The position numbers and the translations under genes are program-made. A model generated the notes under the pieces. That model had not been told where the DNA came from. It made no database searches and saw only the letters and a list, made by a program, of their open reading frames with translations. Positions 27,776 to 36,772 of a stretch of 64,000 nucleotides of DNA are shown here, piece by piece. This DNA comes from Halobacteriovoraceae bacterium (GTDB lineage Bacteria; Bdellovibrionota; Bacteriovoracia; Bacteriovoracales; Bacteriovoracaceae): positions 1 through 64,000 of the forward strand of contig PAMZ01000015.1 of the NCBI GenBank assembly GCA_002707495.1, in the 5' to 3' direction. Every line of letters begins with the position of its first letter. Position 1 is the stretch's first letter.

Positions 27776-28536
27776 AGCTTTTTCACTACTTATTTCAACC
27801 ATTTGTTTATATTTGGTTTGCCACACTCATTATATTTTTTGCCTTACCAGTCGTCATTTTTGTCCTTCCCTTTGGAACAGAAACAAGATTTAAAGTCACT
27901 TCACAAATGTGGGTTAGATTCTATCGAATAATGCTTAAGACTGTGTTTTTTACCAATTTACTGACGATTGACCGAAGAGACGAAGAAAGTAAAAAGAAAA
28001 TCTCTCCTCCTGGTCTTTATATCGCTAACCATCAAAGCTTTGGAGATATTCCGATTATTTTTTCCAAAATTATCATGGCACCTATTATGAAAAAACAGGT
28101 TTTATATGTTCCTATCCTTGGGCTTCTCGCCTATGCATCAGGGGCCATTGTTGTCGATCGAAAAAGTAAGGACTCTCGTAAAAAAGTTTTTGAAATTTCT
28201 AAGAAAGAACTCACCAGTAATAGACGACAATTGCAGTACTACCCAGAGGGAACAAGAAGAAAGGATGGTGGTATAGGCCCTAAGCCATTTGATCAAATAA
28301 AAACAGCTTTAATTGATATAGCTTTTGAATACAACGTGCCTGTATATCCTGTCAGTATTTATGGAACTCCGGAAGTTGTAAATGGAGGACTCGTCATTCC
28401 TGGAAGAAAAACAGGAATTATTTTACATGAAGCGATTCTTGCTCATGAGTTTGCAGACCAAAACAGCTTCGCCAAAGCAGCTTGGGATAAAGTAACTGAA
28501 GGTTATTTTGAACTAGATCGGAAAATTAATTCTTGA
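27772..28536 (+). CDS. plsC: 1-acyl-sn-glycerol-3-phosphate acyltransferase
   Basis: 254 aa. It adds the second acyl chain to make phosphatidic acid. The N-terminal membrane helix (about 12-35) anchors it to the inner membrane. The catalytic HX4D is NHQSFGD (near 86), and the substrate motif is PEGTRRKDGG. It is third in an ATGA-coupled set. The end overlaps truB (opposite strand) by 24 bp. Confidence 0.92.
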   Translation: MKLFHYLFQPFVYIWFATLIIFFALPVVIFVLPFGTETRFKVTSQMWVRFYRIMLKTVFFTNLLTIDRRDEESKKKISPPGLYIANHQSFGDIPIIFSKIIMAPIMKKQVLYVPILGLLAYASGAIVVDRKSKDSRKKVFEISKKELTSNRRQLQYYPEGTRRKDGGIGPKPFDQIKTALIDIAFEYNVPVYPVSIYGTPEVVNGGLVIPGRKTGIILHEAILAHEFADQNSFAKAAWDKVTEGYFELDRKINS

Positions 28537-29439
28537 AATAAGTTTATCATCTTTCATTTCTGCCAATCCGATTATTCTTTCAGATTTTTGTCTCACCCAA
28601 AAAGGTTTAGAAAAGATTTTTTCCCCTTCACCTTCTAGTTGATCTTTTCTCAATTGAACACCATTTAAAAACAGTTTTGATTTTTCGTCATTAAGGTATA
28701 GAGAATTAAAACTTAGTACCTCATCAATTTCTAGGCGTAAAAAATCACCACTCGGCTCAGACTCCATGGCATTTGAAAGATTACTTCCTCCCACTTTCTC
28801 TCGGGTCAACCCCTCAAGCATGCCAATTGTTCCGAGCTCTATTGCACAATCTCGAAAAAGAGTTCGAATATACGTTCCTGAGCTTACTTGATAGCGAATC
28901 CAAAGGTTGGGAAAGTCATACTTAACAACTTCGAGAGAGTGGACTTCACGCCTCACATCAACTTTTTTGATTTCAACTCCCTCTCTCGCCCATTGATGCA
29001 GTGGTTTTCCTTGAAATTTAGCCGCAGAAAACTTGTGAGGGGCCTGCCAATACTCACCAAGAAATTTGGCTTCTAGCTTTTCTTGGATAAAAGGTATTTC
29101 AAATTTTGAAATAACTTCACTGAGGTAGGGTGCCTCATCTTTCTGAGTTACTTCTCCGTCAGGGTCTCCCGTGTCTGTCTCAACTCCTAAAACACCTTTT
29201 GCAAGATAAGTCTTAGGAAGATATTCATGTATATAGTCATTAAGCCTTTGGGCCCCGGCCACACCTAACATCAAAACTCCATCTGCAAACGGATCTAATG
29301 TGCCAAAGTGTCCTACTTTGCCACAGCTTTTTAAGACTGGCTTCCACTTACGAATTATATCGTAAGACGTAATACCAGCAGGCTTGTTAATATTGATAAT
29401 AAATGGTCTAGGCGTCTTCTTCGTCTGACTCACCAGCAA
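28513..29439 (-). CDS. truB: tRNA pseudouridine-55 synthase
   Basis: 308 aa. The catalytic Asp lies in the HFGTLDPFADGVL motif, which starts near residue 41, preceded by NKPAGITSYD. The KTYLAKGVLGVETDTGD and SGTYIRTLFRD segments are also standard. It modifies U55 in the T-loop of tRNAs. The start is TTG 29439 or GTG 29433; GAGGAG lies 4-10 bases upstream, within the rbfA end. It is last in the rimP-nusA-infB-rbfA-truB unit and converges on plsC. Confidence 0.96.
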   Translation of the reverse strand: MLVSQTKKTPRPFIININKPAGITSYDIIRKWKPVLKSCGKVGHFGTLDPFADGVLMLGVAGAQRLNDYIHEYLPKTYLAKGVLGVETDTGDPDGEVTQKDEAPYLSEVISKFEIPFIQEKLEAKFLGEYWQAPHKFSAAKFQGKPLHQWAREGVEIKKVDVRREVHSLEVVKYDFPNLWIRYQVSSGTYIRTLFRDCAIELGTIGMLEGLTREKVGGSNLSNAMESEPSGDFLRLEIDEVLSFNSLYLNDEKSKLFLNGVQLRKDQLEGEGEKIFSKPFWVRQKSERIIGLAEMKDDKLISRINFPI

Positions 29440-29767
29440 GAATCTCCTCTATTTTTCTCTCATCTTCAAATTGAGAGTCATAAAATAAAGCCAATTCAGG
29501 TGTGTGACGGACATTAAGTTCTTTGGCCAGGATGGATCTCAAAGCAGAGCTTACTCCTTCCATAGCTTTTTTTACGTCACCTCTTTTATTAGCATCAAAG
29601 GTGTCCCAGTAAACTTTTGCTTGAGAATAATCAGCCGTAAGTTCGACTCGCGTAATACTTGCCATAACAAGTCTTGGATCAGCTAAATCCCTTCTTAAAG
29701 AGAGATTAAGCTGATCCTTTATTTTGTCTTCAAAAATAGTTTTGTTGAAATTTTTCTTTCGTGCCAT
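29408..29767 (-). CDS. rbfA: Ribosome-binding factor A
   Basis: 119 aa. A single KH-like domain with RDLADPRLVMASITRVELT and AKVYWDTF; helps late maturation of the 30S subunit. The ATG directly follows the infB stop, so translation is coupled. An acidic tail (ESDEEDA) ends in the truB start region. Confidence 0.95.
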   Translation of the reverse strand: MARKKNFNKTIFEDKIKDQLNLSLRRDLADPRLVMASITRVELTADYSQAKVYWDTFDANKRGDVKKAMEGVSSALRSILAKELNVRHTPELALFYDSQFEDERKIEEILAGESDEEDA

Positions 29768-32383
29768 CTATAATGTAGCTTCAGGTGCATCCAACTTTCT
29801 TTGTTTCTCTTCTAGAAGATAAGCTTCAATCAGATCTGCACTTTTTATATCGTTATAACCTTCTAAGGCCATACCACATTCATAACCACTAGAGACTTCT
29901 TTAACTTCATCTTTAAATCTCTTTAAAGTTGAAAGTTTACCATCGTACATGATCTTCCCATCACGCAGAAGTCTGATATTGCATCCTCTCTCAATCTTCC
30001 CGTCGATAACACCACATCCAGCGATAGTTCCAACCTTTGGAATATTGAATGTCTCTTTAACTTCCGCACGTCCGATATATTTCTCAACGGCTTCAGGAGA
30101 TAACATCCCTTCAAGGGCCTTAGTCACATCGTCAATTAACTCATAGATAATACTATAAGTTCTAATTTCAATTCCTTTCTCTTCAGAAAGTTTACGAGCA
30201 GAAGTTACCGGACGCATATTAAAGCCAATAATATATCCATTAGCGTTGGCTGCCATCACAACATCATTATCAGTTATGGCACCTACTCCACCAGATATAA
30301 CATCTACTCCGACTTCATTATTTCCAAGCGGCTCAATGGCCTCTTTTATGGCTTCATAAGACCCCTGAACATCCGCCCTGATAACAAGATTAAGAATTTT
30401 CTTTTCTCCAGACTGAACATCAGCATTGGCAAAGAAATCTTCAAGACTTGCAACTTTTGGAGCTTCAACATTTTGAAGTGCTTTTCTTTCTGAAGCACGA
30501 TTTTCAACTATCTTTTTAGCCTCACGCTCATTTTTTACCACATTAAGGATATCACCTGGGTTTGGTGGATCATTAAGTCCAAGTATCTGAACAGGAATCG
30601 ATGGACCCGCGGACTTTACGTCTTTACCTGTAGTAGACATAAGTGATCTGGCTCTACCATATTTCTCACCACAAACGACGGCATCACCTTTTGAAAGTGT
30701 TCCCTTTTGAACCAAAACCGTAGCGACAGGTCCACGACCAACCTCAATTTTAGATTCGATGATCACACCTTCAGCTTTTCCTTTTGGAGATTCATGTAGA
30801 TCCATAATCTCAGCTTGAAGCTTTACTGTTTCAAGTAGATCATCGATCCCATCGCCATTAAGTGCTGATACTTCAGCAAATAATGTCGTTCCTCCCCATT
30901 CTTCAGGGATAAGCTCAAACTCGGTAAGTTCCTGCTTTATTCTCTCTGGATTTGCGCCTTCTTTATCCATCTTGTTAATAGCAACTATAATGGGACATTC
31001 AGCATTTTTAGCATATTTAATAGACTCTTTGGTCTGAGGCATAACTCCATCATCCGCAGCGACAACTAAGATCACAATATCAGTGACATTAGCTCCACGT
31101 TGGCGCATAGATCCAAAAGCCGCGTGCCCAGGAGTATCAAGAAAAGTTAGAGTCGCATCATCGACTTGTACAGAATAAGCACCAATGTGCTGAGTAATTC
31201 CCCCAGCTTCTCCGTCAGTCACTTTCGTATTTCGAATATGGTCTAGAAGCGTTGTTTTACCGTGATCAACATGCCCCATGACGGTGATTATTGGGTTTCT
31301 AAGAGGAAGACTTGCTTTATCTTTTTTAGCTTTTTCATCTCTTAAGAACTCTTCTTCATTGAATGCCTTATTTTCAACTCTATAATCATAAAGTGCGGCA
31401 ATCTCGGTTGCTAACTGAACACCGATATAATCATCTTTTTTAACCAACAATCCTAAATCAAGACATTCATTTTGAAATTTTTCAAACTTCTGGCTTAATT
31501 TTTGAGCTAGATCGGCAGCTGTGACAACATCATATATATTTACCACTCTTTTAGAGTCTTTTACCTCTGTAATTTCAGTCTGCTTCGTGGCTCCGGTGTA
31601 AACTTTCTTTCTTCGAATAGGAGTATAAATAGACCTTCCCACTAAAGTTGAAGCTAGTTTCATTTCCTCTTCAGCTCTAACTTGAGTGATATCTTTAGTC
31701 TTAGCTGCACCTTTTTTAGAAACAATTGCTGCAAGGTCTCCCATCCGTTTTTTATTGGCACCGGCTCTGTCGTCAGAGCTTTGACTTGGATCAGGAACTG
31801 AGGCTCTAGCATCATCGGCCGGCCCTTTCTTAGCTTCTTTTTTCTCTTTAGGTGGTTGGTCAGGAACTGAAATAGGAGTAAAAGAATGCATTTTCTCTCG
31901 ATACACATCACTAGAATCTTTATCTGATTCTGAAGTCTTCTCTTCTTTTTTTCCTTCCGCACGACGTTTGACGACAACTTTCTTTTTAGGAGCTTCCTCA
32001 ACGATCTCTAAACCTCTAACCGCTGGCTCTTCGTCAAGAGTGACTTCTTCCACTTGAGGAGCTGCCGCGATTTCTTCAACCGGTTTGGCCTCTTCAACTT
32101 CCTCAGTTTTTTCGTCTTCAGCCTTCTTCTTGACGACTTTTTTCTTCACAACTTTTTTCTTCACAACTTTTTTCTTAGTTGCCTTTTTAGCTGTCTTCTT
32201 CTTGGTGACTTTCTTTTTAGTAGGCTTTTCTTCGTCTGGAGCAAAAGCCTGTTTTGCTTGAGCTACTTCTTCATCGCTGAGCTTTACCATATGGTTACGA
32301 ACATTTAGTCCCATACCTTTGAGCTTCTCAACCAGATCAATGGCTCCAATATCGAGTTCTTTTGCTAATTCAAAAACTTTCAT
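29768..32383 (-). CDS. infB: Translation initiation factor IF-2
   Basis: 871 aa. The N-terminal IF2_N helix ([18 protein letters not shown]) is followed by a long Lys/Glu-rich linker (about 50-260), then the GTPase: GHVDHGKTT (near 367), DTPGHAAF (near 413), NKMD (near 467). Domains II-IV follow with SYEAIKEA and the C-terminal fMet-tRNA-binding barrel ending near GKIMYDGKL. It brings initiator tRNA to the 30S subunit. Middle of the classic operon, directly abutting rbfA. Confidence 0.98.
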
Positions 32384-32424: not shown

Positions 32425-33843
32425 TTACTTCAATTTGAAGGCTGCCAATTCCTCACGCAGTCTTCTCTCAGCATCTGAAAATTTCTCACCGTCATCCTCA
32501 GATTTACCTGACTGGCTATCATCTGCAATCATACCTTGACGTGCAGATGGAACCGCAGAGGCAGAAATAATCTCATCTTCTTCCTCTGGTTCATTTTGAA
32601 TATCAGGATTTTCAATAGCAGCCGCAGCCGCAGCGATCATTGTTTGAGCCGCCTCATTTTCAATTTCCATAATCTTCGCAATATCTCCAACTTCACTTGC
32701 GCTTAGATCGACAACAGACATAATACCGGACTGAACGAGAACTTGAGCCGTCGCTTCGTTAACTTCGGGAAGCTGAGCAAGGTTTTCAACTGCAAGTTTA
32801 ACTTTTTCTTGAAGCTTAGACTTGGAAATAATATTTACTTTCCATCCGCTCAGCATCGCTGCAAGTCTTACGTTTTGACCTCTTCGTCCAATAGCCAATG
32901 AGAGTTGATCTTCTTCGACTATAACATCCAAGATATGTTCTTCAGAGTTCATATTAATTGATGTGATCTCACTAGGAGCAAGTGCATTTCTAACAAACAC
33001 TTCCACATCATCGTGCCACTTAACAATGTCGATTTTCTCTCCTTGAAGTTCGTTTACAATATTTTGAACTCTAGAGCCCTTCATCCCAACACAAGCTCCA
33101 ACAGGATCAATATCTCTATCAACAGTAAAGACAGCAATTTTAGCTCTATGACCTGGCTCTCTTGCAGCAGCTTTTATCTCGATAGTTCCATCTTGAATCT
33201 CAGGAACTTCGGTTTCAAAAAGCTTAACCAAAAACATAGGGGATGTTCTCGTCAAACGGATTTCAGGACCTCTATTTGTCATAACAACTTCAGACAAATA
33301 AGCTTGAACTCTATCGCCCGGCTTAAAAGTCTCCCCATAAATGATTTCTCTTCGAGTAAGAATCGCATCCGCTTTTCCTAGATCGATGATAACATTTCCT
33401 CTCTCATAACGACGAACAAGTCCTGTTACCAACTCACCTTCTCTATGTTTGAAGTCAGCGAAAAGAATTTCTCTTTCTGCATCTCTTACTTTTTGAAAAA
33501 TAATTTGCTTGGCTGTTTGAATATCAACTCTTGAGAACCTTGGGTCCTCAATTTTTATCCCTAATTGATCTCCAACGACAGCTTCTTCGTCTAGTTCTTG
33601 AGCTTGGTTAAAGTCAATTTCAACAATTGGATCCTTAACTCCATCAACGACATTTTTATATTGAAATATTTCAATCTCACCATCATCTTCATTGTATTTT
33701 GCTTCATACTCCCCCTGGATACCAAACTTTTTTCGTGCAGTGACTAAGAAGGCTTGCTCGATAGCACCAATAACAACTTCTCTTTTGATCCCACGATCTT
33801 TTCCAAGCTGCTCGATTACTTTTCCAATTTCAGAAAAATTCAC
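32425..33843 (-). CDS. nusA: Transcription termination/antitermination factor NusA
   Basis: 472 aa. N-terminal RNAP-binding domain, S1 domain (about 135-200; GLVRRYERGNVIIDLGKADA), and two KH domains (DPVGACVGMKGSRVQNI; AIGRRGQNVRLAA). Then one helix-hairpin-like repeat and an acidic tail, shorter than the two AR repeats of E. coli. The start is GTG with AAGGAG 6-7 bases upstream, 3 bp after rimP. NusA acts on pausing and intrinsic termination, which makes the terminator in this operon's leader notable. Confidence 0.97.
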   Translation of the reverse strand: MNFSEIGKVIEQLGKDRGIKREVVIGAIEQAFLVTARKKFGIQGEYEAKYNEDDGEIEIFQYKNVVDGVKDPIVEIDFNQAQELDEEAVVGDQLGIKIEDPRFSRVDIQTAKQIIFQKVRDAEREILFADFKHREGELVTGLVRRYERGNVIIDLGKADAILTRREIIYGETFKPGDRVQAYLSEVVMTNRGPEIRLTRTSPMFLVKLFETEVPEIQDGTIEIKAAAREPGHRAKIAVFTVDRDIDPVGACVGMKGSRVQNIVNELQGEKIDIVKWHDDVEVFVRNALAPSEITSINMNSEEHILDVIVEEDQLSLAIGRRGQNVRLAAMLSGWKVNIISKSKLQEKVKLAVENLAQLPEVNEATAQVLVQSGIMSVVDLSASEVGDIAKIMEIENEAAQTMIAAAAAAIENPDIQNEPEEEDEIISASAVPSARQGMIADDSQSGKSEDDGEKFSDAERRLREELAAFKLK

Positions 33844-33846
33844 ACT

Positions 33847-34380
33847 CTACTCCTTATATGGATCCACATCCGGATCTAAATTTGCTTTTTTTATCACTTC
33901 AAAAGGAATCTCTAGATCCTCTGAATCAACTTCTAGCTTTACAGCGGAAGGTAAAATACCACTAACTTTAGCTCTAAGAGAAAGTGAAGTTAATGCTCCC
34001 ATCTCTTTAAGTCTTTCTCGTAACTCACCTTCAAGTTTATGAGGGTCTAGCTTTACCAGCACTAGCTCCCCTTGGGCCCATTCAAAATGTTGAATTGACT
34101 TTAGCTCGCGATACATACCTGGAGAAGAAACCTCTAAGACAAAATCTTCCGGTATCCATGCCTCAGTCTCACAATAAGGAGTAAAGCCTCGGTCAACTTT
34201 CACACAGTCTTCTATAACTGCAGTCTTCGTTTTATCATCCATGATGAAAACTCTTAGAGTTGAAGAACCACTGACATATTCCATGTCATAGAGTTTATAA
34301 CCGCATTCCAATTCGACAATCTTCTTTGTAAGATCGAAAAATTGTTGTTCGGTACCTGTTCTTTTTCTTGAAACCTCCAA
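33847..34380 (-). CDS. rimP: Ribosome maturation factor RimP
   Basis: 177 aa, a little longer than usual. YKLYDMEYVSGSSTLRVFIMDD and EVSSPGMYRELKS are the standard N-terminal domain motifs, and an Sm-like C-terminal domain follows. It is needed for 30S maturation. No ATG is available; TTG 34380 with GGGGT upstream is the best start. First gene of the operon, preceded by a terminator hairpin. Confidence 0.93.
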   Translation of the reverse strand: MEVSRKRTGTEQQFFDLTKKIVELECGYKLYDMEYVSGSSTLRVFIMDDKTKTAVIEDCVKVDRGFTPYCETEAWIPEDFVLEVSSPGMYRELKSIQHFEWAQGELVLVKLDPHKLEGELRERLKEMGALTSLSLRAKVSGILPSAVKLEVDSEDLEIPFEVIKKANLDPDVDPYKE

Positions 34381-34394
34381 GAATTGACCCCAAT

Positions 34395-34423
34395 AAAAAA
34401 AAAGGGCCGGAAAATTCCCACCC
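34395..34423 (-). terminator. Intrinsic terminator in the rimP-nusA leader (candidate attenuator)
   Basis: On the minus strand GGGTGGGAA (34423-34415) pairs with TTCCGGCCC (34412-34404), with one mismatch and one wobble. Nine U residues follow (A-run 34403-34395). It ends only 14 bp before the rimP start, so any transcript reaching rimP must read through it. Confidence 0.8.
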
Positions 34424-34452
34424 TAAAGATAACAACTTAATAACAGGTGTCT

Positions 34453-34481
34453 TATATAACAATCTGTTTGTCATTTGACAA
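34453..34481 (-). promoter_or_regulatory. Promoter for the rimP-nusA-infB operon, with palindrome
   Basis: Minus-strand -35 TTGTCA (34481-34476), 17-bp spacer, -10 TATATA (34458-34453); start expected near 34446. The -35 lies in an inverted repeat TTGTCA-TT-TGACAA (34468-34481), which could be an operator. Confidence 0.65.
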
Positions 34482-34483
34482 GT

Positions 34484-34921
34484 TTAATCGCATTTAAGAA
34501 GCATTGCGAAAGCATCGCTCCCATCTGAATAAAATGAATCTTTCTTTAGAAGTTTCTCAAAACCTAAGCTCTCATACAGAGCAATCGCAGCAATATTATT
34601 AACAGCAACTTCAAGATAAATTTGCTTTAATTCGAATTTTTTAATTGAGTATTTAATCATATCAGAAGCCAGACCCTTTTTGCGCGAGTCCTGGACTACA
34701 TAAATTTTCAATAAATGATAGGATTCTACTCCTTGAGATGTGTTAAATAGACTAAATCCGCACAGTTTATCCTGATCATATGCTGCAATCAAGGCATGGT
34801 AGTCGTAGACCAAACTATTCCAATGGGATTCTCTCCAAGGAAAGGGGAAAAATTTTTGATCCCATTCAGCCAGAATAGGTCTTAAATTTGACCACTCACT
34901 CGAATCAATCAGGCCTACCAA
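34484..34921 (-). CDS. GNAT N-acetyltransferase (RimI-like)
   Basis: 145 aa. The acetyl-CoA-binding loop is in VVQDSRKKGLASDMI, and LEVAVNNIAAIALYESLGFE is the typical C-terminal GNAT strand-helix, close to RimI (alanine acetylation of ribosomal protein S18). The start is TTG with GGAGG five bases upstream, overlapping the previous gene's end, which suggests coupling. The true substrate is unknown. Confidence 0.85.
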   Translation of the reverse strand: MVGLIDSSEWSNLRPILAEWDQKFFPFPWRESHWNSLVYDYHALIAAYDQDKLCGFSLFNTSQGVESYHLLKIYVVQDSRKKGLASDMIKYSIKKFELKQIYLEVAVNNIAAIALYESLGFEKLLKKDSFYSDGSDAFAMLLKCD

Positions 34922-35559
34922 TAGGCCTCCTCATCAATCTGCTGGTCAATGGAAGTAATGAGGTTTCTCGCTCCGATAACTGCTTTTTCAACATCACTCA
35001 CACTACTCTTTCCCTGCGACTCAGAGGGTAAAAACCTTGATCTTACAAAAACTTCAAGTCTTACTATGGGTTCAAAAGACTTAATAAATTCTTTTTCATC
35101 AAAAAGAGACAAATCACATTTTTTTTGAGTCGCTGATAGTCGAAAATACTTCGGAAGGGAAGGTTGAATGCTCACATCGTGAGACTTTGAATAGGCAAGC
35201 AATTTGAAAAAGGGAATTAATTTCTCAAAATACTTCACATCTTTTTGGTTAAATTCAGTCCCCACTTTTAATTCATTTAATCTTCCTCCAGAGAAATCTT
35301 GAGAGAAAATCTTATGAACCAATGACTCTGGGTACATACATTTTAAATCTTCTATGTTTTTTTTGGTTCGCTTTAAATCTTTAAGAGAGAGGACCTCATT
35401 AGCAATTTTAAATACAAATTTATCTTGAAGAATAATTTCATCGCTATCGGCACTGGCAATAGGTAGTACTAATGCCGACGCCAATATAATTTTGAAGTAA
35501 AACTTAAACAGGTGCGTTGATATCCACGTTACCGATGAAACGTTTTTGAACAGCATCAT
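34915..35559 (-). CDS. Exported protein of unknown function
   Basis: About 214 aa. A hydrophobic segment ending at PIASA follows about 20 basic/aromatic residues and looks like a long signal peptide. The mature part is helical and charged, with two Cys (KCMYP, KKCDL) about 90 residues apart that could form a disulfide. GGAAG lies just before ATG 35559/35556. The first 56 bp overlap the end of the TPR-regulator gene, unusually long. Confidence 0.6.
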   Translation of the reverse strand: MMLFKNVSSVTWISTHLFKFYFKIILASALVLPIASADSDEIILQDKFVFKIANEVLSLKDLKRTKKNIEDLKCMYPESLVHKIFSQDFSGGRLNELKVGTEFNQKDVKYFEKLIPFFKLLAYSKSHDVSIQPSLPKYFRLSATQKKCDLSLFDEKEFIKSFEPIVRLEVFVRSRFLPSESQGKSSVSDVEKAVIGARNLITSIDQQIDEEAYW

Positions 35560-36772
35560 CTTCCTTATGAAACCTTGCGTTTACTCTAGGGTTAAAGGTA
35601 TATCCATCTTTTCCACGCAGAATATACTTTCTATTATTTCCTTTGGGCTCAATAAGTTTTCTCAGACGAGATATAGACGTGTAAATCAATTTATCATGAA
35701 TTAATGGGTTATATTCATCTTTCCATATTGATTTTGCCAAGTCTTCCTTATTATAAGAATTTCCAGGGTTTCTAGCCAAAAGAAATAAGATTTCTAGTAG
35801 AACGAAACGATGTTTAAAATCAATAGGTCCAATATTTTTCTCATGAATCATTCTGTTGTGTCGGTCTAGATAGAGATCAACACTTGAATCATTTACGTCT
35901 TCAACTTGATCTTTAATCAAGCCATTTAATCTTTGATATTGAGAATTTATAGAGTGCGAAGCTATTCCAAACAGCATGAGGGCTTGATTGTACTCTCCAG
36001 AGCGTTTTGCCACGATTCCTTTTCCAAGCAAGATATAACCAAATAAATTCCAGCAATTCTTTTCTTGTAACAGGTTCATAGCTAAGTCGTAATTTTCATT
36101 AGCTAACTTAAACTCACCAAGTTCGCGATAAATATTTCCGTAAAGCTGGTGCATCGATCCTTTAAGATAACCTTTTTTAAGAATCGCTAGTAGTTCTTTT
36201 AATTGATTGAGGTATTGAAGTGCTTCGGTGTATTTGGCGAGGTTGAACGAAGCATTTGCCATGGCATAAAGACCTTTAGCAATAAGCTCTGGCTCATTTT
36301 CTGTTTGTGCTTTCTTATAGGAGAGAGAAAAGTTCTCAAGTGCTTTTTCAAACTCTCCTTTGTATGTCGCCACCATACCCACGTTATAAAAATAATGACT
36401 ACTTAAAGAGCCCATAGTTTGCTGAAACTTATCAACCAAGTTTTCGGCTTTAATAATGAGTTCTTTGGCTGCTTCTTCTTGTTCTTTCTCAGAATAAATT
36501 CTAATCAGGAATCCATAGCATTTGAACATAGCAAATGCATCTCGAGGGTAAATCGTCTTTTCTAAAGCCTTGATAAAAAATTCTTCAGCAGAACTTAAAT
36601 CAGCTTTGTCATAATAGATCTTAGCAAGTCGGTAATAGCCTTCACCTATGACTTTATCTTCGTCTGCATCAGAACCGAGCTGCATTCCGTTCTTAAAAGA
36701 CTCCGCTTTAGCCATGTAAAACTCATGAGGCTTTTGAGTGTTTGTTTGATTTTCAAGATTAGTTGTATCCAT
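35504..36772 (-). CDS. TPR protein with C-terminal OmpR-type winged helix
   Basis: 422 aa. Residues about 35-290 are tetratricopeptide repeats (e.g. AEEFFIKALEK, EALQYLNQLKEL, KLANENYDLAMNLL). Residues about 300-395 are a winged helix of the OmpR/PhoB kind: FVLLEILFLLARNPG, then KEDLAKSIWKD, the recognition-helix SISRLRKLIEP and the wing YILRGKDGYTF. No receiver domain. Order is TPR then DNA-binding, opposite to SARP regulators. It is likely a transcription regulator sensing partners through TPRs. Heads a minus-strand unit. Confidence 0.85.
   Translation of the reverse strand: MDTTNLENQTNTQKPHEFYMAKAESFKNGMQLGSDADEDKVIGEGYYRLAKIYYDKADLSSAEEFFIKALEKTIYPRDAFAMFKCYGFLIRIYSEKEQEEAAKELIIKAENLVDKFQQTMGSLSSHYFYNVGMVATYKGEFEKALENFSLSYKKAQTENEPELIAKGLYAMANASFNLAKYTEALQYLNQLKELLAILKKGYLKGSMHQLYGNIYRELGEFKLANENYDLAMNLLQEKNCWNLFGYILLGKGIVAKRSGEYNQALMLFGIASHSINSQYQRLNGLIKDQVEDVNDSSVDLYLDRHNRMIHEKNIGPIDFKHRFVLLEILFLLARNPGNSYNKEDLAKSIWKDEYNPLIHDKLIYTSISRLRKLIEPKGNNRKYILRGKDGYTFNPRVNARFHKEDDAVQKRFIGNVDINAPV

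Follow-up and report, generated by a model that had tools for sequence, protein, structure and literature searches.

A conserved terminator hairpin ahead of rimP-nusA-infB in Bacteriovoracaceae as a probable lineage-specific form of the rimP-leader attenuator

Attenuation in the leader of the nusA operon is an idea already published for bacteria other than the one considered here. Naville and Gautheret (2010; PMC2965389) describe the rimP-leader as the most ubiquitous attenuator, present in Firmicutes, Gammaproteobacteria and "the majority of species", and name NusA as the best candidate; their main text makes no mention of Bdellovibrio or Deltaproteobacteria. A 2025 review (PMC12288461, citing Mondal et al. 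2016) states that in B. subtilis NusA controls its own expression by stimulating termination in the leader; RNA-seq in S. agalactiae (PMC4448216) placed termination 31 nt past the start site, with NusA feedback proposed; and in E. coli (PMC6511841) terminators lie upstream of rimP and NusA participates in regulating the operon, autoregulation by NusA having been proposed there too. A literature search for a start-site map of Bdellovibrio nusA found no paper.

The locus described here comes from the Bacteriovoracaceae group of the Bdellovibrionota, a lineage that is kin to predatory bacteria. The window (the whole 64-kb stretch of DNA that was analysed) carries on its minus strand, as identified by Pfam domains, the gene order rimP, nusA, infB, rbfA, truB, and the original prediction, namely that a terminator between the promoter and rimP attenuates this operon in a NusA-linked manner, is right in outline. 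The features concerned are as follows.

34484..34921, minus strand: gene for a rimI-like GNAT acetyltransferase, upstream of rimP on the same strand (Pfam Acetyltransf_1)
34453..34481, minus strand: promoter; -35 TTGTCA at 34481-34476, 17-nt spacer, extended -10 TGT-TATATA (TGTTATATA), -10 at 34458-34453
34468..34481, no strand assigned: palindrome TTGTCAAATGACAA (TTGTCA-AA-TGACAA) overlying the -35, right half not conserved
34444..34448, minus strand: probable transcription start, 5-9 nt past the -10, placed from the position of the -10
34403..34424, minus strand: rimP-leader hairpin AGGGUGGGAAUUUUCCGGCCCU, from its fold, family-wide conservation and covariation
34395..34403, minus strand: U9 tract of the intrinsic terminator, read from the sequence, its first U also closing the stem (U6-9 in relatives)
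33847..34380, minus strand: rimP, TTG start (Pfam RimP_N, 2.5e-10)
32425..33843, minus strand: nusA (Pfam NusA_N, S1, KH_5)
29768..32383, minus strand: infB (Pfam IF-2, GTP_EFTU)
29408..29767, minus strand: rbfA (Pfam RBFA)
28513..29439, minus strand: truB (Pfam TruB_N)

In alignment the TTG at 34380 falls on the ATG with which rimP begins in the nearest relative, and the roughly 100 nt that separate it from the stop codon of the rimI-like gene (34484) contain both the promoter and the hairpin. Upstream of rimI, in the window (35504-36772) as in most family members, lies a gene for a TPR-repeat protein whose last, C-terminal domain is a DNA-binding domain of the OmpR type.

The promoter that had been claimed upstream of the hairpin is present: its score is equalled by none of 60 dinucleotide shuffles, and the 7 closest relatives retain it in the same register, with the consensus TTGTCA-17-TGnTAtnAA (one relative has TTGCCT) and with the -10 beginning 31-36 nt ahead of the hairpin. 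In more distant family members the promoter calls mostly lack individual significance in the shuffle test. The operator-like palindrome that had been proposed over the -35 exists as a sequence; its right half is not kept in the 7 relatives, so that the common part, TTGTCAA, is in effect the -35 itself, and judging from this comparison TTGTCAAATGACAA is probably a chance occurrence. Just past the -10 of the closest relatives, about 20-25 nt before the hairpin, the leaders have CTGTTAY-AGTTG in common (as in L148 and L095), and in some of them this region contains a perfect small inverted repeat, AACTG-TTA-CAGTT.

The hairpin with nine U was likewise found as described, on the minus strand between 34424 and 34395, with a folding energy of -13.2 kcal/mol (z -2.74, equalled by 2 of 200 shuffles), and the distance from the end of the T-tract to the rimP TTG is the 14 nt that had been given; the coordinates in the original prediction are all correct. 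Calling it a strong terminator is slightly generous: the hairpin and the T9 run are real, but the stem contains one G.G mismatch and is only of average strength among relatives (-12.7 against a median of -12.65). A mechanical feature scanner reported neither promoter nor terminator, because its rules are strict as to the last T of the -10 and an uninterrupted stem.

A comparison of leaders from related species, which had been suggested along with the original prediction, bears the hairpin out. Collecting the rimP leaders of 49 other Bacteriovoracaceae genomes together with that of the window gave sufficient sequence in 48, and in 46 of these 48 a hairpin plus T-run, above a cut-off that about 6% of shuffled leaders also reach, lies directly ahead of rimP, with the consensus GGGYGG...CCRCCC followed by T6-9. 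In an alignment of 43 hairpins 91.8% of the cells are paired, and six of eight pairs have changes on both sides; double-changed cells number 33 against 6.9 in shuffles, a value that none of 500 shuffles attained and that is, if anything, slightly lowered by one row (of the L020/L021 type) that MAFFT misaligns. This excess of compensatory change indicates that the hairpin is selected for pairing, its stem sequence being conserved too. The hairpin is absent from four related genomes, namely G036 (L063), G025 (L064, on the same contig as L141), L139 and L144, and is therefore not indispensable; in L141 and L144 a CCCAA..TTGGG hairpin occurs farther upstream instead.

The spacing from T-tract to start codon is 0-60 nt across the family and mostly too short for a promoter. 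Among the T-tracts, lengths of 6 and of 8-9 predominate, and 9 forms a sharp ceiling (as in the window, 34395-34403; there is one case of 10). In L012, L013, L115 and L118 the rimP ATG directly follows T9 with no visible Shine-Dalgarno sequence; none fits there, so the read-through mRNA would be translated without a normal one.

Outside the family an equivalent hairpin precedes rimP in the Bdellovibrionales (GCGGG..CCCGC; L149-L159) and, as AAGTGGG..CCCGCTT, in a further group that includes Candidatus Acididesulfobacter (L163-L174). A phylum-level sample contains one in nearly all of 30 loci, often AATGGGCCC..GGCCCATT, the weakest or most divergent being those of L202, L203 and L205. The corresponding E. 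coli hairpin is CTGGGCTTTAGGCCCTTTTTTT (L175), and the canonical GGGC..GCCC stem is shared by E. coli and other members of the phylum outside the family.

We consider it very probable that the window element is a rimP-leader attenuator. RNA polymerase engaging the promoter at 34453-34481 would start near 34446 and reach the intrinsic terminator after about 50 nt, where some polymerases would release a short RNA, predicted to be of about 50 nt; only the fraction that reads through would then transcribe rimP-nusA-infB-rbfA-truB, and NusA, which stimulates hairpin termination, would set that fraction and thereby exert negative feedback on its own operon. That termination takes place at this leader in the cell is what we infer from these features. 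The further claim that the operon relies on read-through is strongly supported by the conservation, covariation and position of the hairpin and by those relatives whose upstream gene is divergent; it has to be softened in that transcripts reading through from rimI could feed the operon as well, so that transcription need not come from the promoter at 34453-34481 alone. Since only about 20 nt of RNA precede the hairpin and no antiterminator is seen, a factor acting on polymerase and hairpin is a more likely means of control than an alternative fold, and this factor, which would decide how much transcription reads through, is probably a protein. By analogy with the systems described above, NusA is the likely effector and best candidate, and its feedback on the operon through this leader seems to us reasonably probable; the explanation as a whole, attenuator and NusA feedback together, we regard as likely.

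Most of the alternatives ascribe another role to the hairpin. That it merely terminates the upstream rimI operon, rimP being expressed by leakage or from an unseen promoter, would fit the position of rimI, 60-150 nt upstream of rimP and on the same strand in nearly all family members, and the fact that similar hairpins end other genes: GGGYGG..CCRCCC hairpins double as ordinary gene-end terminators in the family genomes, and the stem sequence alone is thus no mark of a special regulator. Yet a conserved promoter sits between rimI and the hairpin, the T-tract ends only 14 nt from rimP, and the hairpin is kept in distant groups with other neighbours and beside divergent genes, where it cannot terminate an upstream transcript: an inverted rimI homologue in L125, a gene with a signal-peptide-like start in L099, and one encoding a metalloprotease-like HELGH motif in L160, where the hairpin is weaker. 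We therefore hold this role to be very unlikely, and judge equally improbable that the hairpin chiefly controls rimP translation from within or beside the ribosome footprint; in many genomes the T-tract and the start codon are indeed separated by 0-20 nt, and the four loci whose ATG abuts T9 speak for such a role, whereas the unbroken U6-9 is a terminator hallmark that a translational hairpin would not need, and the distance from hairpin to start codon ranges from 0 to 60 nt. Least probable of all is a riboswitch-like antiterminator fold competing with the hairpin: although the upstream bases of L130, L138 and L143 pair with the 5' arm better than in shuffles, only 3 leaders reach p 0.05, the mean z over 44 family leaders is -0.23, no antiterminator or larger conserved aptamer was found in these leaders as compared with shuffles, and the stretch of RNA ahead of the hairpin is short.

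An attenuator that responds through the same hairpin to a signal other than NusA, for example RimP, NusG, the state of translation or cold, is unlikely in our estimation, if distinctly less so than the foregoing. RimP was also raised by Naville and Gautheret (PMC2965389), in E. coli cold induces the operon, which contains several terminators (PMC6511841), and the U9 tract is strong; against this, NusA autoregulation is the sole mechanism at this leader for which we found reported experimental support (PMC12288461). Two points weigh against NusA as effector here: in B. subtilis, NusA-dependent terminators are reportedly weak as a rule, and a U9 terminator may be independent of NusA. Returning to NusA feedback, a speculative and rather doubtful version of it is that a terminator about 50 nt from the start gauges free NusA as NusA loads and sigma leaves the polymerase; if true, such a sensor would need no specific RNA recognition and could be shared across bacterial phyla, and the related genomes without the hairpin would serve as knock-outs made by nature.

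The possibility that such hairpins form a regulon, standing in front of other genes too, was considered and rejected: a search of 59 genomes for the exact GGGYGG..CCRCCC-T5 pattern gave 38 matches, of which 20 lie at rimP, and most of the others look like ordinary gene-end terminators or fall within reading frames. The element at rimP, in turn, is near-universal in the sampled Bdellovibrionota, which adds weight to the view that the nusA operon is subject to an ancient and widely shared feedback circuit based on premature termination; compensatory changes and divergent neighbours identify the element as a genuine leader attenuator, and leaders of about 50 nt are compact and easily tested in vitro.

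These features can be set against the described systems. Rfam gave no match for the window at gathering score; L20_leader and DapZ, which scored weakly and below gathering, were set aside as apparent generic terminator similarity. The gammaproteobacterial rimP leader (RF01770) concerns the same gene and the same final hairpin, but has a second, upstream terminator/antiterminator, and its covariance model found no match in the window or its relatives while scoring 102 bits on the E. coli positive control. The leader of S. agalactiae gbs0413-gbs0418 (PMC4448216) likewise places a terminator ahead of rimP-nusA-infB, with RNA evidence there where the window is known from sequence alone. In B. subtilis (Mondal et al. 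2016, as cited by PMC12288461) NusA stimulates an intrinsic terminator in the leader of the nusA operon, and this termination gates transcription into the genes, a NusA effect that we extend to the window by analogy; the leader there measures about 180 nt (PMC2965389) against about 50 nt here. The closest correspondence is with the general rimP-leader as PMC2965389 defines it, a short intrinsic terminator directly ahead of rimP in the rimP-nusA-infB operon with a GGG..CCC stem, 4-130 nt from the gene, with no antiterminator and with NusA proposed: in the window the intrinsic terminator lies in the rimP 5' UTR, 14 nt from the gene, rimP is the first gene of rimP-nusA-infB, and the family leaders contain no larger conserved aptamer or antiterminator. 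The published stem motif, GGGc(...)gCCC, recurs here in a different form, as GGGYGG..CCRCCC in the family and as GGGU..GCCC in the window, where c has become U and pairing is kept as a U.G pair. As judged by these shared features, the window element is the known rimP-leader, its sequence taking a lineage-specific form that escapes RF01770.
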